From assembly GCF_013911965.1 (NCBI RefSeq), contig NZ_JACESE010000019.1, positions 1 to 63,273 of the forward strand: 63,273 nt of DNA. Direction: 5' to 3'. The stretch is from Phenylobacterium sp. (lineage in GTDB: Bacteria > Pseudomonadota > Alphaproteobacteria > Caulobacterales > Caulobacteraceae). Below, one piece after another: positions 30,219-54,914 of the stretch; within the stretch, counting starts at the first letter, position 1; each line of letters begins with the position of its first letter. A model generated the notes under the pieces. That model was not told the DNA's origin, did not search any database, and saw only the letters and a program-made list of their open reading frames with translations. Both the position numbers and the translations under genes were made by a program.

Positions 30219-30437
30219 TCAGCGGACCCGGAAGGTGATCCGGCCCTTCGTGAGATCGTAGGGGGTCATCTCGACGAGGACCTTGTCCCCGACCGCCACG
30301 CGGATGCGGTTCTTGCGCATCTTGCCGGCGGTGTGGGCGATGATCTCGTGATCGTTTTCGAGCTTCACGCGGAACATGGCGTTGGGCAGCACCTCGCTGA
30401 CCACGCCCGGGAACTCCAGCAGTTCTTCCTTCGCCAT
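30219..30437 (-). CDS. infA: translation initiation factor IF-1
   Basis: A 72-aa S1/OB-fold protein that binds the A site of the 30S subunit during initiation. [18 protein letters not shown] opens it and [14 protein letters not shown] ends it, both family hallmarks. The start at 30437 gives the standard length. A perfect TATAAT lies about 80 bases upstream (30513-30518). A second, diverged infA is present at 54645-54914. Confidence 0.97.
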
Positions 30438-35800: not shown

Positions 35801-35875
<75 letters not shown>

Positions 35876-35967: not shown

Positions 35968-36525
35968 ATGACGACCTTCACCGCTTTCGCCGGCGGTGCG
36001 CGCATCGCGCACGGATCGGCTTGCGAGGTGGCCCTGGCGCTGAGCGCGCTCGCCCCCGATGCGCCCCCGCCGCTGGTCCTGGACGACGCCACCGGCAAGG
36101 CCGCCGACCTCGATCTGCGCGGCGGACCCGAGGCGATCCGGCGCCGCTACCCGGCGCCCGAAGCTCCGGAGCCGAAACCCGGCCGCGGGCGGCCGAAGCT
36201 CGGCGTCGTTCCGCGCGAGGTCACCCTCCTGCCCCGCCACTGGGAGTGGCTCGCCCGCCAGCCTGGCGGCGCCTCGGCGGCCCTTCGCCGACTCGTCGAG
36301 TCGGCGCGCCGCGAAGGCGGCTCGGCCGAGGATCTCCGTGTGCGACGCGAGCGCGCCTACAGCGCCATGGCGGCCCTCGCCGGCGATGCTCCGGGGTTCG
36401 AGGAGGCGAGCCGCGCCCTGTTCGCCGGCGATCGCCCGCGGCTGGAGGCGCAGATCGCGATCTGGCCCGGCGACATCCAGGCCTATGTGCTCGCCCGCCT
36501 CGACGACTCAGCGGCCCTCGACTGA
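35968..36525 (+). CDS. DUF2239 family protein
   Basis: A 185-aa protein of the DUF2239 family. N-terminal FTAFAGGARIAHG and central GRGRPKLGVVPREVTLLPRHWEWLARQPGGASAALRRLVESAR (shortened here: LGVVPREVTLLPRHW) are typical; the central part resembles a ribbon-helix-helix-like or DNA-associated segment. Function unknown. It ends 18 bases into the convergent Rz1-like gene. Confidence 0.8.
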   Translation: MTTFTAFAGGARIAHGSACEVALALSALAPDAPPPLVLDDATGKAADLDLRGGPEAIRRRYPAPEAPEPKPGRGRPKLGVVPREVTLLPRHWEWLARQPGGASAALRRLVESARREGGSAEDLRVRRERAYSAMAALAGDAPGFEEASRALFAGDRPRLEAQIAIWPGDIQAYVLARLDDSAALD

Positions 36526-36795
36526 GCGCGCCTCCAGCGCGTGCTCAGCCGCATGCGTGTCCACGGCGAGCTTCCGAGCCGCGTCGCAGGCCACCAGTTG
36601 CGCGCCTCGCATCACATAGCCGATCTCCAGATCGGCGAAGCTCGGAGCTTCAGGAAGGACGTAGAGGGCGCACGGCCTTTGCGCCTCAAGGGGCATGGAG
36701 AGCTGCGGCGCAGCCCTCGAGAGCGGGAGCTGCGGCGCACAGCTGGCGATCGGCCAGGCGCAGGCGGTCAGCACGATCAGGATCAAGCGGCGCAT
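36508..36795 (-). CDS. Rz1-like outer-membrane spanin lipoprotein
   Basis: A 95-aa small lipoprotein. A lipobox IASC is at residues 16-19 after a hydrophobic leader. The following LSMPLEAQRPCALYVLPEAPSFADLEIGY and GAQLVACDAARKLA (PCxxxxLPE ... C pattern) match LysC/Rz1-type phage o-spanins, which span the periplasm with an i-spanin to disrupt the outer membrane. The start lies 110 bases inside the upstream Rz-like gene in a different frame, the arrangement of overlapping Rz/Rz1 pairs. Assigned on pattern and position, not homology search. Confidence 0.7.
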   Translation of the reverse strand: MRRLILIVLTACAWPIASCAPQLPLSRAAPQLSMPLEAQRPCALYVLPEAPSFADLEIGYVMRGAQLVACDAARKLAVDTHAAEHALEARSVEGR

Positions 36796-37063
36796 TCGCG
36801 TCCTCCGCGTTCAGGGCCTTCGGAATGGCGGCCGCGGCGATCCGCTCGGCGGCGCGCACGGGAACCTGCTGGGCCGCGACGCGGGCGGCGGCGTCCCGTT
36901 CGCCCTCCGCCTCCAGGGCGTGCCGGTCCGCCGCCGACTGCGCGGCGGCCACCTCGGCCCGCAGGCGCCGCGACGCATCGGCGCGTCCATCCAGATAGAG
37001 GGCGAGCCCACAGATCAGCAGAACGCCCGCGAGGCTCGCCCAGAGCGTGAGGCGCCAAGTCAT
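36686..37063 (-). CDS. Rz-like inner-membrane spanin
   Basis: A 125-aa protein with one N-terminal membrane helix (residues 7-25, LWASLAGVLLICGLALYLD) followed by a charged helical, probably coiled-coil stretch (RRLRAEVAAAQSAADRHALEAEGERDAAARV in short pieces). This is the standard layout of phage i-spanins. It starts 4 bases before the endolysin stop (ATGA at 37060-37063) and contains the Rz1-like start, so the three genes form one lysis cassette. Confidence 0.7.
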   Translation of the reverse strand: MTWRLTLWASLAGVLLICGLALYLDGRADASRRLRAEVAAAQSAADRHALEAEGERDAAARVAAQQVPVRAAERIAAAAIPKALNAEDANAPLDPDRADRLRLADRQLCAAAPALEGCAAALHAP

Positions 37064-37521
37064 GGGCGCAGCCCCGCCCGATAGCGTCCGCCCTCGTAAG
37101 TCATCACCTGGCGCCGCCAGCGGCCGCCCAGGCCCAGATGCACCCAGCGGCCGTTCTCCTCTATCAGCTGGTCGAACCGCAGATCCGAGGCCGCGATCGC
37201 CCGGCAGATCTCGCGCGGCGTCCCGAAGGCCGGGCAGATGAAGTCCGCCGCCTCCCCCCGCATGTGGGCGCTGGTCGCCGAACCGCCGACCGCGCGGTTC
37301 ACCTCCGGCGAGCGATAGCCGCTCGTCACCAGGATCGGGCGGTTCCCAAGCAGGGCGCGCACCGTCTCCAGAATCCGGGCCGTCTCCGTCAGCCGCGTCA
37401 GCACGGGCGGCGGCGGATCATTCGACAGTCCGCGCTGCTGCGTGGCGGTCAGTTCCTCCAGCGGCGCCAGGGCCGCCACCGCCTCGCGCGGATCCTTCCG
37501 CCTGCGAACCGCCCGCGCCAT
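37060..37521 (-). CDS. M15-family D,D-carboxypeptidase endolysin
   Basis: A 153-aa soluble peptidase of the M15A family, the common phage endolysin type. Zinc ligands: SAHMRGEAADF (SxHxxGxAxD) near residues 94-104 and WVHLGLG near the C-terminus; SGYRSPEVNRAVGG (near 80) is family-typical. No signal peptide, as expected when a holin releases it; no holin gene is recognised nearby. GAGGTGG precedes ATG 37521. First gene of the lysis cassette with the two spanins. Confidence 0.82.
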   Translation of the reverse strand: MARAVRRRKDPREAVAALAPLEELTATQQRGLSNDPPPPVLTRLTETARILETVRALLGNRPILVTSGYRSPEVNRAVGGSATSAHMRGEAADFICPAFGTPREICRAIAASDLRFDQLIEENGRWVHLGLGGRWRRQVMTYEGGRYRAGLRP

Positions 37522-37895
37522 CGCCACCTCACTCTTCTGAAAACCAACGGGGCCGTCCGCCCCGCGCCCGCTCCGCGCCTCACGAGAGGCGCGCCGATGG
37601 CTCCTGGAGCCGGGCGCGGGGCTCCTGCGGCGCATGAAGAAGCCGCCGCCCCGGGCCTCGTCCCATCGCCGCCGCCCGCGGGGGAGGACACGAACGGCAG
37701 CGGAACATCAGGCGCGCGTCCGCGGCCGGAGCTTGAGAGGACGCTCCAGCGCCGCCTGCGCCATCAGCGCAGCCGCCACACCTGACTTTGCGAAAACCCG
37801 GAAAACCGCGAGGCGAACCCGCCCCGCCGCGGCGTCCCTCAGCGCCTCAGACGCAAGAACGACCCATACCCAGAAGCTACCAAATCCTCAGGGGA
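37522..37895. other. gap upstream of the endolysin
   Basis: About 370 bp with no supported gene. On the minus strand a very short reading frame starting MAQAALERPLKLRPR (about 37720-37775) may be a relic. The gap must contain the promoter of the lysis cassette; no operator resembling the TGTA-N7-TACA of the S24 repressor was seen in it. Confidence 0.4.
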
Positions 37896-37991
37896 ATGCA
37901 AGAACATTTAGAGAACATCTCAGCGAACGCCAATGACGCCCATTCCTGCTTGCGCCGCTTGGTGGACCTCCTCATGCTCCGGGCGGACTGA
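37896..37991 (+). CDS. very small protein, unknown
   Basis: A possible 31-aa protein, MQEHLENISANANDAHSCLRR followed by LVDLLMLRAD. Its DNA is richer in A/T than the neighbours, and CAGGGGA lies directly before the start, though very close. It could be a phage-derived regulatory peptide or a chance reading frame; I know of no family. Confidence 0.3.
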   Translation: MQEHLENISANANDAHSCLRRLVDLLMLRAD

Positions 37992-38091
37992 CGGGGAAGG
38001 GTAAGATCGGCTGGCCGCGTCGCAAAGGGAACACCACCCCGAGGCTCGACCGGTGGCTGGCGAGCCGGGCATATCCCCTGAAGGAGATCAC

Positions 38092-38286
38092 ATGTACCAG
38101 TGTTGCTTCTGCGGCGAATCCATTTCCCGGAAGGACGCGGGCGCTGTCTCCATCGGCATCTGGACGATCCAACGCAAGGATCCGCCGGGGCAGAACGTGT
38201 TCGCGCACAATCGCTGTCTTGCGGAGAAGTTCGGGCCGACGCTGCACCCCTCCGTGCCGTTCGATGCAGAGGCCTTCCTCGACTGA
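38092..38286 (+). CDS. small CxxC protein, unknown
   Basis: A 64-aa protein. MYQCCFCGESISRKD holds a Cys cluster (C4, C5, C7 with FCG) that could bind zinc, and the second part IGIWTIQRKDPPGQNVFAHNRCLAEKF ends with a further Cys near His-Asn-Arg. The start ATG 38092 has AAGGAGA 6 bases upstream, a very strong site. I do not recognise the family. Confidence 0.65.
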   Translation: MYQCCFCGESISRKDAGAVSIGIWTIQRKDPPGQNVFAHNRCLAEKFGPTLHPSVPFDAEAFLD

Positions 38287-38302
38287 GCTCGCGGGCCGCC
38301 GC

Positions 38303-38746
38303 TCAACGCGACGCATAAGCCGCCATCAGCCGGCCGAAGTCCGCCGGCTGCGGGAAGCCCGCGAACCCTTCCACCGCTGGCGTGCTCGCCCAGGGCAGCT
38401 TCTCAGCCGTCATCGTCTCCATGAAGGGCTCCAGCCCCGAGGGGTCGTCGAACAGGGTCGAGCGGACATTGACGAAGCCCTCGGCGCCCTCCGGCCGCGT
38501 GAACATCCAGCTCATGCAGTGCGGGCAGAAGAAGTGCCGCGTCGCCCCGTGCAGCCCGCCGATCACCGGCTCGCCCGCCGTGACCTCGAAGTCGTCGGCG
38601 GCGAAGAGCGCGCTCAACGAAAAGGCGCTGGCCGTCATCTGCTGACAGCCGCGGCAATGGCAGGCCATCGTCACCTTCGGCGCCCCGCTCACGCGAAACC
38701 GCACCTGGCCGCACCGGCATCCGCCCTCTCGCGACATCGTCCCCAT
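38303..38746 (-). CDS. GFA family (glutathione-dependent formaldehyde-activating enzyme-like) protein
   Basis: A 147-aa zinc-binding protein. The Cys ligands are in GGCRCGQVRFRV (residues 9-20), CHCRGCQQM (near 30) and FFCPHCMSW (near 92), the Mss4-like layout of GFA proteins. It may spontaneously or enzymatically link glutathione and formaldehyde, but many members have other roles. GGAGG precedes ATG 38746. It is convergent with the small CxxC gene, 16 bases apart. Confidence 0.88.
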   Translation of the reverse strand: MGTMSREGGCRCGQVRFRVSGAPKVTMACHCRGCQQMTASAFSLSALFAADDFEVTAGEPVIGGLHGATRHFFCPHCMSWMFTRPEGAEGFVNVRSTLFDDPSGLEPFMETMTAEKLPWASTPAVEGFAGFPQPADFGRLMAAYASR

Positions 38747-38860
38747 GGCCCTCGCCTCCTCAGCTTCAACCGCCCGCCATGTGCGCAGCCGAAGGCGGAG
38801 CCGTCCAGGGCGGGGATCGCTCCTGACCGCGGCGTCCCCGGCGGCTCTCAGATTGGGCTT

Positions 38861-38884
38861 GAGCTGGAGCCTCGCTCCAGGCTC
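38861..38884. promoter_or_regulatory. hairpin in the purC leader
   Basis: CTGGAGC (38864-38870) pairs with GCTCCAG (38874-38880) around loop CTC, and GAG/CTC extend the stem past a bulged G. It lies about 75 bases upstream of the purC ATG. It could be part of a 5' leader or a barrier to transcription from upstream. No known riboswitch is recognised. Confidence 0.35.
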
Positions 38885-38958
38885 ATAAGGCGCTGCGCCG
38901 CGAGGCGCCCAGAGACAGACCGCCCCTTCCGACCCTGCCGAGACTGCGAGTCGCCGCC

Positions 38959-39960
38959 ATGCCCACCATCGACGAAGCCCGCCTCTCGGCCAGCGCCCAT
39001 CAGGTCCTGCGCGAGGCCATCGACCCGGCCCTGCCCGGCCTCTACCGCGGCAAGGTGCGCGACAATTACGACCTGCCCGACGGCCGGCGCATCCTGGTCA
39101 CCTCCGACCGCCTGTCGGCCTTCGACCGCGTGCTCTGCCACATCCCGTTCAAGGGCCAGGTGCTGAACGGCGTCGCCCGCTGGGCCTTCGAACAGACCGC
39201 CGACATCTGTCCCAACCATGTGCTCGACTATCCCGACCCCAACATCGTCGTCGGCCGCCGCCTGCAGATCCTGCCCGTCGAGATCGTCGTCCGCGGCTAC
39301 CTCGCGGGCACGACCAGCACCTCGATCCTGACCATGTACAAGGCCGGCCGCCGCCAGATGTACGGCCAGACCCTGCCCGACGGCCTGAAGCCCAACCAGG
39401 CGCTCGACCGCCCGATCATCACCCCCACCAGCAAGGCCGACGACGGCGCCCACGACGAGCCGCTGACCGCCGACGACATTCTCTCGCGCGGCCTGCTCAC
39501 CCCGTCCCAGTGGGATCAGATCGGCGAAACCGCGCTGGCCCTCTTCGCCCGCGGCCAGGCGTTGGCCGCCGAACGGGGGCTGATCCTGGCCGACACCAAG
39601 TACGAGTTCGGCCTCGACGCCGACGGGACCCTCCGCCTGGCCGACGAGATCCACACCCCCGACTCCAGCCGCTACTGGCGCGCCGACACCTATCCCCAGC
39701 GCCTGGCCGCCGGCGAACGTCCCGACAGCTTCGACAAGGACGTCATCCGCGACTGGGTGGCCGCCCGCTGCGACCCCTATGCCGACGCCATCCCCGACAT
39801 CCCGCCGGAGCTGATCTGGAAGACGGCGCTCACCTATGTCGAAGCCTATGAGCGGATCACCGGCCAGACCTTCGCCCCGCCGAAGCCGACGCCGCCGGTG
39901 CAGGACCGCGTGATGGCCGCCCTGGCGAAGTTCCACGACGCCGCTTCCGCGAAAGCCTGA
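38959..39960 (+). CDS. purC: phosphoribosylaminoimidazole-succinocarboxamide synthase, long form
   Basis: SAICAR synthetase of de novo purine synthesis (ATP-dependent ligation of aspartate to CAIR). At 333 aa it is the longer, yeast Ade1-like form rather than the 237-aa E. coli type. The core has GKVRDNYDL (near 30), [22 protein letters not shown], and [12 protein letters not shown], all standard. No Shine-Dalgarno is obvious upstream. rpiB follows at 11 bases on the same strand and probably shares the transcript. Confidence 0.95.
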
Positions 39961-39971
39961 GCCGCCCGCCC

Positions 39972-40421
39972 ATGACGCCGAACCGACGGATCGTCCTCTC
40001 CAGCGACCACACGGCCATCGCCCTGCGCCAGGCCATCGCCGCCCACATCGCCGACCACGGCTGGGAACCCCTCGACATCGGTCCCACGACGCCGGACAGC
40101 ACGGACTACCCTCGCCATGGCGAAGCCGCCGCCCGCCGCGTCGCCTCCGGCGACAGCCGCTTCGGCATCATCCTCTGCGGGACAGGCCAGGGGATCATGA
40201 TGGCCGCCAACAAGGTGAAGGGCGTCCGCTGCGGCGTCTGCGCCGAGCCCTATTCCGCCGCCATGATCCGCGCCCACAACGACGCCAACATGCTGGCCCT
40301 GGGCGCCCGCGTCGTCGGCCAAGCCCTGGCGCTCGCCATCGTCGACGCCTTCCTCACCACCGATTTCGAAGCCGGCCGCCACGCTCCGCGCGTGGAGATG
40401 ATCAAGGCGCTGGAGGGGTAG
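39972..40421 (+). CDS. rpiB: ribose-5-phosphate isomerase B-type sugar-phosphate isomerase
   Basis: A 149-aa RpiB/LacAB-family enzyme interconverting ribose 5-phosphate and ribulose 5-phosphate. SSDHTAIALR (near 10), ILCGTGQGIMMAANK (Cys and anion hole, near 64-78) and CAEPYSAAMIRAHNDANMLALGAR are diagnostic. It links the pentose phosphate pool to purine synthesis, fitting its place just behind purC. Confidence 0.93.
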   Translation: MTPNRRIVLSSDHTAIALRQAIAAHIADHGWEPLDIGPTTPDSTDYPRHGEAAARRVASGDSRFGIILCGTGQGIMMAANKVKGVRCGVCAEPYSAAMIRAHNDANMLALGARVVGQALALAIVDAFLTTDFEAGRHAPRVEMIKALEG

Positions 40422-40441
40422 GATCGCGGCCGAAGATGATC

Positions 40442-40981
40442 CTATCGCCGTTCGCCATAGCGGTTCGGCCCGGGGGAGCCTGGCAAGGCGAGAAGGACGA
40501 TCAGCCCAAGCACGGCGAGCCCGTAAAGCGCATGCGCCGCTGCCGCACTGTCGAACAGCCAGTGTGTGGGAAAGTCCTCGTACCACGTGACCCAGAAGGC
40601 GCCCATGCCGTATTCGGCGAACGGAATGGGGAGCAGTCCCCAGCGCGCCGAGCGGCCGATATCATGAAGGCGCCGCGCGACGGCGGCCGCCATCAGAGCG
40701 TAGTAGCTGACGGTCGTCAGGAGCGTGAAAAGCATGAACTTCTGCGTCGCGGCGTCGAAATGCTCGTCTAGCCGGTCCAGCAGTTCGCTCGACGGCTCTG
40801 CGCCCGCTTGAATGGCGAACATGGCCTCCATCAGCGGATAGGTGATCAGAACACCCCCCGCAAAGCCCACCGAGACGTACAGCCCGAGGACCATGGCGGC
40901 GAAGAGCCAGAACTCCCCCAGCGTATCCCGTCCCCCAAAATCCCGCAGCCGGCGGAAACCGCCGATAACCTCATTCCGCAT
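40442..40981 (-). CDS. DUF805 family membrane protein
   Basis: A 179-aa integral membrane protein with about four hydrophobic segments (near 27-45, 85-105, 120-140, 150-168). The motif ARRLHDIGRSARWGLLP, here in the middle, is the DUF805 hallmark. Function unknown. The start at 40981 fits the start of the first amphipathic stretch. Confidence 0.85.
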   Translation of the reverse strand: MRNEVIGGFRRLRDFGGRDTLGEFWLFAAMVLGLYVSVGFAGGVLITYPLMEAMFAIQAGAEPSSELLDRLDEHFDAATQKFMLFTLLTTVSYYALMAAAVARRLHDIGRSARWGLLPIPFAEYGMGAFWVTWYEDFPTHWLFDSAAAAHALYGLAVLGLIVLLALPGSPGPNRYGERR

Positions 40982-41059
40982 GCCCGCACCCCCGCCTGAT
41001 GCGCGTATGTAGAGCGCAGCTTGGCCATTCGGACCAGCCCGCTGAGCCACCTCGGCGCC

Positions 41060-41290
41060 TACGGCGTCATCTCCATCGCCAAATCCCCCAGCACCGCATC
41101 GATCGTCCGCCGCCCCGCCGCGGCGATCGCCTCGTTCTTCCCGCGATAGTAGGAAGCGCCAGCACGCCCTCGATCAGGGCCCAGGCCCGCCCGCGCCGCC
41201 AGGTGGCCGCGGCGCCCGCACGGCCAGTTCCTCGCCCAGCCGGCACATGTCGTGATCGGCGCTGTCGGCGCTCACGCGCGAAACCGCCCG
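41060..41290 (-). pseudogene. decayed gene remnant, family uncertain
   Basis: Three short stretches of protein-like sequence lie in different minus-strand frames: RAVSRVSADSADHDMCRLGE (upper end), AWALIEGVLAL (middle) and YYRGKNEAIAAAGRRTIDAVL ending at a TAG at 41060. They read as parts of one protein broken by at least two frameshifts. A regulator C-terminus is possible, but the family is not identified. Confidence 0.5.
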
Positions 41291-41388
41291 CGCGACAGCC
41301 CTGGGGCCTCGTCATCAGCTATGTCGTCGATCCCTCCGGCGTCCTCTGACACGTCGCCCAGCGCCGCCCAGGCGAGATCAGCGACTAA
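41278..41388 (+). pseudogene. VOC/glyoxalase C-terminal remnant
   Basis: The frame reads PPARQPWGLVISYVVDPSGVL, a TGA at 41347-41349 where Trp is expected, then HVAQRRPGEISD and TAA. The PWG...SYVxDPxGxLW pattern is the conserved end of VOC glyoxalase-like proteins. No N-terminal half is present, so it is a truncated, nonsense-broken remnant next to another decayed gene. Confidence 0.55.
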
Positions 41389-41971
41389 CAGCGCACTCAT
41401 CCCCCGCCAGCAGGTCGAGCGCCACGCCGAGCAGCGCCTCCAGTTCGATCACCGCGCGTTCGCCTCGCGCCGCCTCGCGGGGGGTCAGCTCGCGGCCGCA
41501 GACGAGGTCGCAGGCGGCGACGAGTTGCGGCTGGTTCCACAGGCGCGTGCGGAGCGCCGCGAGCCGCGCGGCCGCCTGGGCCGAGCCTTCGGCGGCCATC
41601 AGCAAGACCTCCTCCCGCGCGCCCGGCCCAGCGGGGCCCCCACCGCCCGGTCGCACGTCGAGGGTGGAGCGGATCGCCCCCTCCCGCGCCGACCGGCGAT
41701 AGAGGACGCCGTATCGCTCGCCCGCGCTCTTCTGCCGGGCGCTGATCTTCCCCTTGCGCGCCAGCCAGTCGAGCCCCGCCTGGCGCTTGTAGGGCGTGGC
41801 CCGCGCCGCATGGGCCGGCGCCTCGAACGCCGCGCCGCGGGCGGCCGACAGGGCCACCGTCTCGGCCACGCCCGCCTCCACCGCTGCGGCCTCGGCCTTG
41901 GTGCGGGCCCGCCGCTCGGCCGCCAGCAATTGTTCCCGCGCCCGCAGCGCAGGGTCGAAGATCCTCGCCAT
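41378..41971 (-). CDS. third gene of the repressor-linked operon, DUF6456-like layout
   Basis: A 197-aa soluble protein. A basic helical N-terminus (AREQLLAAERRARTK) is followed by GLDWLARKGKISARQKSAGE near residues 66-85 and a C-terminal helical part (NQPQLVAACDLVCGRELTPRE, then LEALLGVALDLLAGDE). The LxWLxxxGxIsxxQxxAGE pattern resembles DUF6456-type proteins of Alphaproteobacteria and phage-linked regulators. It lies 11 bases after the 73-aa gene. Function unknown; DNA binding is possible. Confidence 0.65.
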   Translation of the reverse strand: MARIFDPALRAREQLLAAERRARTKAEAAAVEAGVAETVALSAARGAAFEAPAHAARATPYKRQAGLDWLARKGKISARQKSAGERYGVLYRRSAREGAIRSTLDVRPGGGGPAGPGAREEVLLMAAEGSAQAAARLAALRTRLWNQPQLVAACDLVCGRELTPREAARGERAVIELEALLGVALDLLAGDECAVSR

Positions 41972-41982
41972 CGCTGTTCCCC

Positions 41983-42204
41983 CTATGGCCGGCCGCGGGA
42001 GACCACGGCGTCGGCCAGCCGGTAGACCGCCTCGCCGGCCGCCCGGTCCCCCTCCAGGATCACCAGGCCCGCCGCCGTGTGGGCCAGCAGCTCCTTCAGG
42101 AACTGCGCCCGCGCGCCGGGCGTGCGATCGCCCAGGGCGCGGGCCACCAGGGCGCCGGCGTCCTCGGGCGCGCCCTCCGCCGCCCCTTCTATCGCCACCC
42201 TCAT
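41983..42204 (-). CDS. second gene of the repressor-linked operon, unknown
   Basis: A 73-aa mostly helical protein (LVARALGDRTPGARAQFLKEL, then VYRLADAVVSRGRP). I do not recognise a family. Its ATG overlaps the stop of the upstream gene by 4 bases and the next gene follows at 11 bases, so the three minus-strand genes form one operon divergent from the S24 repressor. Confidence 0.65.
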   Translation of the reverse strand: MRVAIEGAAEGAPEDAGALVARALGDRTPGARAQFLKELLAHTAAGLVILEGDRAAGEAVYRLADAVVSRGRP

Positions 42205-42542
42205 CGCGAAGCCTCCGGCCAGACGAGCGGCAGGCCGACGCAGACGCCGGTCCGGCCGATCCGCCGCTCGGTCAGGGCGGGAAAACCGCCCTGCCCCATC
42301 ACCGCGGCCACATGCCTGTCGTGCCGGGCGAACTTGGGCTGCGCCTCGCCGGCGCCCCGCGCCACCTGGCCGCGGAAGGCCTTCTCCATGTTGCGCATCG
42401 CCCGCGGGCCGAGGCGGAGAAAGGCGCCGGCCTGGGCCGAGGTGGCCCCGCCTCGCCGCAGGTTCGCATAGTCGCCGAGGGCGGGCAGGCTGGGCGGCTT
42501 GGACTTCGGGGCCGCCGCCCGGATGTGATCTGACGTTTCCAT
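42201..42542 (-). CDS. first gene of the repressor-linked operon, possible helix-turn-helix protein
   Basis: A 113-aa protein. The stretch GDYANLRRGGATSAQAGAFL followed by RLGPRAMRNMEKAFRG looks like a helix-turn-helix, while the C-terminus VGLPLVWPEASR is not recognised. The start is 42542, or 42566 (MYEKYTQAM), which would overlap operator O1 at 42551-42565. No Shine-Dalgarno is obvious. It is transcribed away from the S24 repressor, whose operators O1 and O2 lie at its promoter. Confidence 0.65.
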   Translation of the reverse strand: METSDHIRAAAPKSKPPSLPALGDYANLRRGGATSAQAGAFLRLGPRAMRNMEKAFRGQVARGAGEAQPKFARHDRHVAAVMGQGGFPALTERRIGRTGVCVGLPLVWPEASR

Positions 42543-42550
42543 GGCCTGAG

Positions 42551-42565
42551 TGTATTTTTCATACA
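42551..42565. promoter_or_regulatory. operator O1 (TGTA-N7-TACA)
   Basis: TGTATTTTTCATACA: arms TGTAT and ATACA around 5 bases. It lies 9 bases upstream of the minus-strand operon start at 42542 and matches O2 (42586-42600) and O3 (43299-43313) in the pattern TGTA-N7-TACA. Confidence 0.7.
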
Positions 42566-42585
42566 TACAGCCGACAAGCAGAAAC

Positions 42586-42600
42586 TGTAGGTTATTTACA
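42586..42600. promoter_or_regulatory. operator O2 (TGTA-N7-TACA)
   Basis: TGTAGGTTATTTACA, flanked by C and G that extend the arms to CTGTA/TACAG. It lies 31 bases upstream of the repressor ATG (42632), between the two divergent genes, so it probably controls the repressor itself. Confidence 0.7.
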
Positions 42601-42631
42601 GCCGCCCACAGGTCCGCTAAGTCTGGCGACC

Positions 42632-43276
42632 ATGGACAAGCCGTCAGACCGACTGCGCCAGGCGAGGCTCGAGGCCGGCTATGAGACCGCCGCCGCGGCG
42701 GCCGAAGCCTTCGGCTGGAACCGCAACACCTACGCCTCCAACGAGAACGGCAACGCCCCCTTCTCCTTCCGGCGCAGCAAGGAGTATGCGGCCGCCTTCA
42801 AGGTGCGGCCCGAATGGCTCTACGACGCGCTGGGCCCCATGCGCGATTCCGCCCGCGAAGGCTTCGTCCCGATCCTCGGCCATGTAGGCGCAAACCCCGA
42901 CGGCGTCGTGCTTTTCGCCACGGGACAGGAGCCCACCGACCTCGCCCCCATCCCGCCGGGCGGCACGACCCGGGCCCGCGCCCTGCGGGTCGTCGGCCAT
43001 TCCATGCGCGGCCTCGCCGACGACGGCGCCCTGATCTATTTCGAGGACCAGCGCACCCCGCCCACGCCCGACATGCTGGGCCATGTGGTGGTGGTCGAGG
43101 TCGACACCGACGAGGTGCTGGTCAAGCGCCTGCTGCGCGGCTCGCGCGCCGGCCTCTACGATCTGGAAAGCGTCGCCGGCCCCACGCGCCAGGACGCCCG
43201 CCTGCGCTGGGCGGCCCACATCACCGCCATCATCCCACCCTTCCAGGCCCGCCGGATCATCCAGAGCGCCCTCTGA
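42632..43276 (+). CDS. XRE-family S24-type phage repressor
   Basis: A 214-aa repressor. The N-terminal helix-turn-helix is at about residues 6-45 (LRQARLEAGYETAAAAAEAFG then WNRNTYASNENG), and the C-terminal S24 (LexA-like) peptidase domain has the catalytic dyad Ser124 in VVGHSMRGLADDG and Lys165 in VLVKRLLRG. These residues suggest RecA-stimulated self-cleavage, though the Ala-Gly cleavage site could not be fixed. It is surrounded by three TGTA-N7-TACA sites and is divergent from a three-gene operon. Confidence 0.9.
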   Translation: MDKPSDRLRQARLEAGYETAAAAAEAFGWNRNTYASNENGNAPFSFRRSKEYAAAFKVRPEWLYDALGPMRDSAREGFVPILGHVGANPDGVVLFATGQEPTDLAPIPPGGTTRARALRVVGHSMRGLADDGALIYFEDQRTPPTPDMLGHVVVVEVDTDEVLVKRLLRGSRAGLYDLESVAGPTRQDARLRWAAHITAIIPPFQARRIIQSAL

Positions 43277-43298
43277 GCGGCTTTTCCTTGCCGTTGAT

Positions 43299-43313
43299 TG
43301 TATGTAAGATACA
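43299..43313. promoter_or_regulatory. operator O3 (TGTA-N7-TACA)
   Basis: TGTATGTAAGATACA, the centre of a longer perfect palindrome (8-base arms GATTGTAT and ATACAATC, 43296-43316, 5-base spacer). It is downstream of the repressor and ends 9 bases before the GTG start of the next gene (43323), so binding would block that gene. Confidence 0.75.
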
Positions 43314-43322
43314 ATCCCGCCT

Positions 43323-43736
43323 GTGAGCGCTCCACCCCCACCCCGGCACGACGAGATCCTGGCCCGGCTGGCGGCCCGCGACCAGGCCGCCTGGGCCGCC
43401 GGACAGGCCGCGCGCCGGACGGGCGCCGTCTGGTCGGCCCTGACGCCGGACCCCCGCCGCCGACGCGACGCCGACCAGCTCAGGGCCGCCGCCGAAGCCG
43501 AACACGCCGCCCGCCGCGCCTGGCGTGACAGCCCTCAGGGCCGGCTGAAGACCGCCCTCTCGGCGCTGCAGCAGGCCGCCCGCGCCCTCGATCACCGCGC
43601 CGAGGCCCTGCGCGAGGCCGCCAGCCGCGACCCCACCCTCGCCGCCGAGGTCTGGCCGCGACGCCGCGACGACCTCCGGCGCGACGCCGCCCGCCTCCGC
43701 CAGGCCCTGCATCAGCTCCTGCGCGCTCTCCGCTGA
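43323..43736 (+). CDS. repressor-controlled small protein, unknown
   Basis: A 137-aa highly helical, Ala/Arg-rich soluble protein (QLRAAAEAEHAARRAWRD, ALSALQQAARALDHRAEALR), probably coiled-coil. I do not recognise the family. It starts with GTG 9 bases after operator O3, with no Shine-Dalgarno, and lies 46 bases past the repressor. Induction on loss of the repressor is inferred. Confidence 0.6.
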   Translation: MSAPPPPRHDEILARLAARDQAAWAAGQAARRTGAVWSALTPDPRRRRDADQLRAAAEAEHAARRAWRDSPQGRLKTALSALQQAARALDHRAEALREAASRDPTLAAEVWPRRRDDLRRDAARLRQALHQLLRALR

Positions 43737-54644: not shown

Positions 54645-54914
54645 CTAGCGCCGGTGCGGCGGTCGGCGCTGGCCGCCGCCCATGCGGGGGCCTTCGGTCT
54701 TGTGACGATAGGTGATGCGGCCCTTTTCCAGATCGTAGGGCGTCATCTCCACCGTGACCCGGTCGCCCACCAGCGAGCGGATGCGGTTCCGCTTCATGCG
54801 GCCGGCGGTGTAGGCGAGGATGGTGTGTTCGTTGTCGAGCTGAACCCGAAAGCGGCCTTCCGGCAGCAGCTCGGTGATCACGCCTTCGAACTCGATGAAC
54901 TCTTCCTTGGACAT
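54645..54914 (-). CDS. infA2: second translation initiation factor IF-1, with C-terminal tail
   Basis: An 89-aa IF-1 paralogue. The core [22 protein letters not shown] and [14 protein letters not shown] match IF-1, but many positions differ from the copy at 30219-30437 and there is a 17-residue basic extension ending [16 protein letters not shown] precedes ATG 54914. A duplicated IF-1 may have a specialised role; it could be a stress- or growth-phase-specific form. The gene stops 4 bases from the convergent FMN-protein gene. Confidence 0.9.

Follow-up and report, generated by a model that had tools for sequence, protein, structure and literature searches.

The window, by which we mean the whole stretch of 63,273 nt of Phenylobacterium sp. 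DNA that was analyzed, carries a phage-type repressor gene (rep) accompanied by three copies of one inverted repeat and by a divergent operon of three genes (g1, g2 and g3), and it raises the question of what this switch controls and where it comes from. The initial annotation viewed it as a compact SOS-type switch. Our comparative analyses make it likely instead that Phenylobacterium harbors an ancient, domesticated prophage element of P22-like type and that this locus is its control region, left orphaned here by the loss of the virion genes. The features on which the argument turns are the following, in order along the window:

35,801–35,875, forward strand: tRNA-Thr(ggt), in relatives a neighbor of the element's right end
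35,974–36,270, forward strand: remnant or relative of the right-end gene R182
36,520–36,663, reverse strand: remnant of a right-end lipoprotein-like gene (Rz1-like by eye only)
36,664–41,377, no strand: interval of the head genes in relatives, with GFA-like, purC, rpiB and DUF805 genes here instead
41,378–41,971, reverse strand: g3, helical protein apparently distantly related to DUF6456 (GafZ type)
41,983–42,204, reverse strand: g2, 73-aa protein with a weak relative in phage contig L114
42,201–42,542, reverse strand: g1, small protein modeled as three helices (HTH-like) plus a beta hairpin (pLDDT 75)
42,551–42,565, no strand: predicted operator O1, TGTATTTTTCATACA, 8 bp upstream of the chosen start of g1 (ATG at 42,542)
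42,586–42,600, no strand: predicted operator O2, TGTAGGTTATTTACA, 35 bp from O1 and 31 bp ahead of the start codon of rep
42,632–43,276, forward strand: rep, repressor of 214 aa with XRE-HTH and S24 domains, Ser124/Lys165, and Ala87-Asn88 where Ala-Gly is expected
43,296–43,316, no strand: predicted operator O3, palindrome with 8-base arms immediately ahead of the next gene
43,323–43,736, forward strand: dn, gene behind O3, 137 aa, no assigned function; a SRAP-type gene stands here in other clades

The pattern TGTA-N7-TACA occurs in the window at 42,551, 42,586 and 43,299, as the initial annotation had it, and nowhere else in it; dinucleotide shuffles gave a mean of 0.04 occurrences, and 0 of 100 shuffles reached three. 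The layout was also as described there, with O1 and O2 lying between the g1 and rep start codons, and with O3 before the next gene, inside the longer palindrome GATTGTAT-5-ATACAATC (43,296–43,316). A scan of the whole genome, proposed together with that annotation, upheld the enrichment at the locus and failed to extend it to the genome: the window's own 3.86-Mb genome contains six exact sites, the three outside the locus having G+C-richer cores, vs. 17 matches for a control consisting of the pattern read backwards, so that the motif is enriched at the locus only. The idea of a genome-wide regulon was dropped: away from the locus there are few exact sites, most of them G+C-richer, and the total number of exact sites was below the reversed-pattern control in this genome and in all 10 others scanned. 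One of the G+C-richer matches, TGTACCACTCCTACA, recurs across species (e.g., G088:C1:1375233 and G000:C5:83657), perhaps as conserved coding sequence. A promoter and terminator scan of the locus returned nothing at its cut-offs, and −35/−10 elements that we had read by eye were discarded as unsupported by it.

With the repressor as query, genome contigs yielded 78 related loci, labeled mostly Phenylobacterium and otherwise Caulobacteraceae, Caulobacter or Alphaproteobacteria. The operators were counted in the 68 loci where the repressor is complete and no less than 140 bp of upstream DNA is available, a set that includes paralogs and leaves out the distant L083 and L084: at least one exact operator lies upstream of the repressor in 53 of them and two in 29, and a pair (up to one mismatch each, 34–36 bp apart) is found in 44, at exactly 35 bp in 38 cases, over a background of 1/3262. 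An exact site and a pair occur, respectively, in 47 and 40 of the 55 loci that have g3, and in 6 and 4 of the 13 that do not. The third site is exact within 120 bp past the repressor stop in 30 of the 66 loci having enough downstream DNA, and exact sites elsewhere in the 0.68 Mb of related loci amount to 2/121. In 10 genomes scanned, 22 of 48 exact sites fall at the switch locus, although in one of them (G025) this locus has no exact site; the stretch from terL to the right end of the element contained none (nine of these genomes have a TerL match). This conservation supports the earlier proposal that the switch would serve the divergent operon, rep itself and the next gene.

The gene behind the repressor varies, and the third site varies with it. 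Among 64 classified loci it is dn-type in 26 and SRAP-type in 17 (together 43/64), and of another kind in 21; O3 is exact in 24/26, 3/17 and 2/21 of them, respectively, and with up to one mismatch allowed it is found in 8/17 SRAP-type loci (background 12/2206). The SRAP assignment was checked by Pfam in one gene (example L019:5702-6247). A SRAP-type next gene is a hint towards DNA damage, at loci where the third site is mostly degenerate, and dn shows a dN/dS of 0.78 in the window lineage.

The same operator arrangement accompanies related repressors in other contexts. Some of those in viral contigs (L095–L098) have operators spaced by 35 bp, with two exact sites at this distance in each of L095, L096 and L098, whose repressors are ~41–46% identical to the query set. 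Two other viral relatives (L091 and L092) show, by eye, GGTAT-type inverted repeats in place of TGTA…TACA, which suggests that operator specificity may have changed within the repressor family. In the window's own genome there is a second repressor, L191 (G000:C4:120473-121120), 70% identical to rep and preceded by two near-exact operators 35 bp apart (CGTATATAATCTACA and TGTATGATAAACACA), so the two switches may cross-regulate each other. Lastly, L071 and L072 each have a related repressor, accompanied by the same operator pair, immediately ahead of a gene that by eye is serine-recombinase-like, and these loci could be a mobile cousin of the switch.

The assignment of rep as a phage-type S24 repressor was borne out by a match to phrog_4 (E 5.7e-20), the score against Pfam S24 (22.5 bits) being just under the 23.3-bit cut-off; four matches among named phages showed 31–34% identity, and a PDB sequence search returned nothing at E 0.01. 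Both members of the annotated Ser124/Lys165 dyad are present and invariant in a 33-member alignment, and both motifs were found in 69 of the 78 loci, one or both being missed in nine cut, fused or divergent copies. However, the bond to be cut is changed. It could be scored in 67 of the 78 loci and reads Ala-Asn in 50, Ala-Asp in 16 and Gly-Asn in one; by eye, the 11 unscored loci comprise Ala-Asn (L046 and L048), Ala-Asp (L077), Ala-Gly (L083 and L084) and six without the stretch. Ala-Gly is thus seen among genome loci only in the distant L083 and L084 (42–43% identical), and it is also the bond of the viral repressors L095, L096 and L098. Cys-Gly is an alternative scissile bond of S24 repressors. 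The substitution falls at the position of lexA3, the G85D change at the scissile bond of Escherichia coli LexA that is described as making the protein uncleavable (PMC6872733, PMC6363387), and consequently self-cleavage in an SOS response, as annotated from the dyad, is unlikely for this repressor.

Modeling and profile searches give some indications on the divergent operon. A fold search of the g1 model against the PDB produced no significant match, the weak ones including LuxR/RcsB-type HTH proteins, and neither g1 nor any of its 46 aligned relatives had a DnaA-type match (GafY-like, DnaA domain IV) or a consistent family; g1 is probably DNA-binding. The model of g3 is all-helical (pLDDT 86), again with nothing significant in the PDB. 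Of 44 g3 proteins, 26 match phrog_21451, a phage family of unknown function, and one matches DUF6456 in Pfam scans (E 0.001), while the g3 of L016 had no match in named phages. A profile of g3 aligned with a DUF6456 profile of Caulobacteraceae proteins with 81.7% probability over 46 columns only, and the copy of g3 in phage contig L114 matches DUF6456 over its length (E 7.1e-5), narrowly missing the curated cut-off. The g3 relatives of phage contigs L112 and L114 stand behind replication-like genes and ~1.7 and ~0.2 kb before terminase genes, respectively (roles assigned by eye). GafA is reported to give BLAST matches annotated as DUF6456 or helix-turn-helix proteins (PMC9638019), and GafZ to resemble the C-terminal part of GafA (PMC11150451). 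Together, these comparisons are consistent with a distant, weak likeness of g3 to the GafZ/DUF6456 antiterminators.

Synteny in the relatives points to what the operon may have served. Viral contigs L102 and L104, like whole genomes, have the large terminase gene behind g3, sometimes with intervening genes, and from g3 onward the order is terminase (phrog_2, 1e-16), portal (phrog_156, 8.8e-132), scaffold (phrog_3927, 2.3e-33), P22-type coat (phrog_283, 1.3e-73; P22_CoatProtein PF11651, 1.8e-34) and further head and packaging genes, of which two more families were recognized; a small terminase behind g3 in L104 was identified by eye, Pfam giving no match. IMG/VR lists pieces of the inherited element as viral contigs (L085–L090 and L101–L106). 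Among 100 Phenylobacterium genomes, matches were found to TerL in 53, to the coat in 45 and to the repressor in 82, counts that include some fragments, paralogs or distant copies: the coat count takes in a fragment in G011 and a distant copy in G083 (32%), and the repressor count, with its paralogs and fragments, sets a ceiling of 82 on the genomes that have the orthologous switch. TerL occurs together with the repressor in 49 of the 53 genomes that have it, and together with the coat in 40; G058, for one, has TerL, portal and coat. The portal was matched in 18 of 149 genomes overall, and outside the genus in three genomes from two of the 21 other genera sampled.

The element varies among genomes. 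No stop codon interrupts any of the 45 coat matches. A tyrosine integrase was found inside the element in 0/20 genomes, some of whose contigs end before the right end, and in G010 an integrase lies ~4.7 kb beyond that end; no replication gene was recognized by eye among the conserved ORFs. In G044 and G069 half of TerL adjoins a holin-like gene, with a second TerL copy elsewhere on the contig in G069, and in G006 and G011 TerL is in pieces, possibly through assembly or sequencing errors. The repressor of G093 lies 1.3 Mb away from TerL, and G047 had no TerL or coat match.

The virion cluster, carried by about half of the 100 Phenylobacterium genomes, is mostly vertically inherited. Protein distances correlate with those of gyrB for the coat (r 0.50, 23 genomes), TerL (0.64, 24), portal (0.70, 23), rep (0.72, 15) and g3 (0.75, 16), with 0/2000 permutations as high for each of the five proteins, and several well-supported clades agree between the trees of element genes and that of gyrB. 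The coat tree departs from gyrB in joining G019 with G026 and G068 with G082, which indicates that some exchange has occurred. In the sister clade of the window, dS is 0.30 for the coat, 0.36 for TerL and 0.32 for the portal vs. 0.31 for gyrB, and dN/dS of the three is 0.08–0.11. Outside this clade dN/dS of the virion genes ranges from 0.09 to 0.38: a second clade has dS values of 0.20–0.25, below the 0.31 of gyrB, with dN/dS reaching 0.33, and a third pair has 0.26–0.32 vs. 0.26 for gyrB, with dN/dS reaching 0.38. The chromosomal place is also shared, as the element or its remnant adjoins tRNA-Thr/DUF2948/hisD in 11 of 18 genomes examined, that of the window included; in six of the other seven this flank is not in the fetched stretch, and in G010 it is absent from the 60 kb fetched.

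The window itself keeps the borders of the element, i.e., tRNA-Thr and two right-end remnants on one side and the switch at the left end. Between them, the GFA-like gene (38,303–38,746) occupies the same interval in 7/7 sister genomes compared, and the TerL, coat and portal of the P22-type cluster have no match anywhere in the window's genome; therefore, the full circuit cannot work there. The genes of the switch are intact. Their raised dN/dS at first looked like decay of an orphaned switch under relaxed selection; the values against the window are up ~3.5-fold for rep and g2, but also ~3-fold for gyrB (0.10–0.15 vs. 0.05 within the clade), so no special relaxation shows and the idea was set aside. 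Control of an RcGTA was rejected, as neither GTA_TIM nor DUF6456 was matched in the window's genome at E 0.001. As a separate observation, the window contains a second infA-like (IF-1) stretch at 54,705–54,914, 60% identical to infA of G091, besides the usual copy at 30,222–30,437.

Our best reading of these results is that the control unit is RogA-GafYZ-like and that the domesticated P22-type element is a candidate gene transfer agent. The S24 repressor would bind O1 and O2, which by their position would cover both divergent promoters, and would keep g1-g2-g3 and rep itself low, while O3 would silence the next gene, dn in the window. In relatives with virion genes, lifting of the repression would allow the synthesis of g1, probably DNA-binding, and of g3, the putative GafZ/DUF6456-like antiterminator, which together would switch on the late cluster behind g3, that is, terminase, portal, scaffold, coat and further head genes; particles might then be produced, with a possible role in gene transfer. 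Because the late genes lack exact operators in the genomes scanned, their control by the repressor would be indirect, via g1–g3 or other genes. With Ala-Asn or Ala-Asp at the scissile bond, induction would probably respond to another signal or to an antagonist, rather than to RecA-driven self-cleavage.

The locus could also be part of a defective prophage remnant with no present function, left by an ancestor that was lysogenized once, with virion genes decaying in each lineage and the repressor lingering by chance or because it protects against related phages through immunity. We grant this reading a substantial chance, a little short of even: 47 of the 100 genomes have no TerL match and 55 no coat match (some assemblies being incomplete), the deletions in G044 and G069 are visible, as are the TerL pieces of G006 and G011 if these are not errors, and dN/dS of the virion genes outside the sister clade spans the range given above; moreover, the related repressors in viral contigs, some with the same operator spacing, make a role in immunity plausible. 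A mere remnant is nevertheless harder to reconcile with coat genes free of stops, with the low dN/dS of coat, TerL and portal in the sister clade, and with a divergence that follows the host in a cluster kept by about half of the genus. Retention of the switch as a host regulator of dn or of the SRAP-type gene, independently of the virion cluster, would account for repressor matches outnumbering those of TerL, for the nearly constant O3 of dn-type loci, for module genes that stay open where TerL is missing (e.g., in the window's genome and in G047) and for a rise in dN/dS of rep and g2 close to that of gyrB. Yet the supposed target changes from clade to clade, O3 is seldom exact before SRAP-type genes, dn itself has a dN/dS of 0.78 in the window lineage, and paralogs and fragments inflate the repressor count; we regard this alternative as rather doubtful.

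The two remaining explanations fare worse. A compact SOS-type switch, in which DNA damage would release the operon and the downstream gene through RecA-stimulated self-cleavage, could draw on the S24 fold with its conserved dyad, on the SRAP-type genes of 17 of the 64 classified relatives and on the precedent of RogA, which is described as having been identified in a screen centered on a DNA-damage gene (PMC9632790). It is improbable given that Asn or Asp takes the place of glycine in every one of the 67 scored loci and, by eye, in three others, at the very residue altered in lexA3, and that the locus has no SOS box. The alphaproteobacterial SOS box is GTTC-N7-GTTC, and the two copies in the window (37,692 and 37,902), about the number expected by chance, are both away from the locus. 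Repeated insertion of an active temperate phage at one and the same tRNA gene might explain why tRNA-Thr adjoins the right end and why several copies are listed as viral contigs in IMG/VR; it is very hard to credit for an element in which none of the 20 genomes showed an internal tyrosine integrase, whose conserved ORFs include no recognized replication gene and whose divergence parallels gyrB.

Most knowledge of gene transfer agents comes from a single family, RcGTA. The domesticated element favored here would, in its fullest form, mean that Phenylobacterium carries a P22-type, short-tailed gene transfer agent independent of RcGTA, with a naturally lexA3-like repressor closed to SOS, and that the window lineage dropped the particle and kept the switch, now wired to other genes; this would be a second, separately evolved case of RogA/GafZ logic. 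We offer this extended proposal tentatively and think it somewhat more apt to fail than to hold. We found no description of the element among the open-licence papers listed for gene transfer agents in connection with Phenylobacterium, with domesticated podoviruses or short-tailed prophages, or with P22-like phages, or among those listed for prophages or S24 repressors of Phenylobacterium. If the proposal is true, a P22-type cluster is inherited with the host in a genus neighboring Caulobacter, under a repressor of RogA-like architecture, and one can ask directly whether phage domestication has repeatedly gone by way of RogA-type control logic. From the natural change of Gly to Asn or Asp at the cleavage bond one would predict that induction does not depend on DNA damage, and the several lineages that have lost virion genes can serve as natural controls.

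Among known systems, lambda CI and LexA share with rep an HTH plus S24 domain, a Ser-Lys dyad and a divergent operator region, and rep differs from them, and resembles the uncleavable LexA3, in that Gly no longer follows the expected scissile Ala, its place being taken by Asn or Asp. The P22-like temperate podoviruses have portal, scaffold, coat and head-completion genes in the same order, but the element differs in that no tyrosine integrase was found inside it and no replication genes were recognized, and in its mostly vertical inheritance. Like the RcGTA-like agents, it is an inherited, usually single-copy cluster of head and packaging genes under putative host-borne control; in contrast to them, its coat is P22-type in the relatives, and GTA_TIM is absent from the window's genome, which was searched for it. 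Head and packaging genes in a host-inherited cluster, one trait of gene transfer agents, are present in the relatives and absent from the window's genome. The closest parallel in control is RogA-GafYZ of the Caulobacter crescentus gene transfer agent, where RogA is reported to have an S24-like domain and to repress a gafYZ promoter with two inverted repeats (PMC9632790), and where GafZ is described as the antiterminator of the cluster (PMC11150451). The operator is GGAA-N4-TTCC there and TGTA-N7-TACA here, RogA lacks the catalytic residues whereas rep keeps the dyad and has a changed scissile bond, and GafY is DnaA-like whereas g1 is not; since g1 is not GafY-like and the link of g3 is weak, we do not claim membership in the RogA-GafYZ type. 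Both systems nonetheless combine an S24-type repressor with paired inverted repeats in the operon promoter, as judged here by sites and synteny, an operon that encodes GafZ in one case and the apparently distantly DUF6456-like g3 in the other, and a chromosome-borne head-gene cluster driven, in our proposal, by that operon; unlike in Caulobacter, switch and cluster usually form one locus in Phenylobacterium, and the coat is P22-type.
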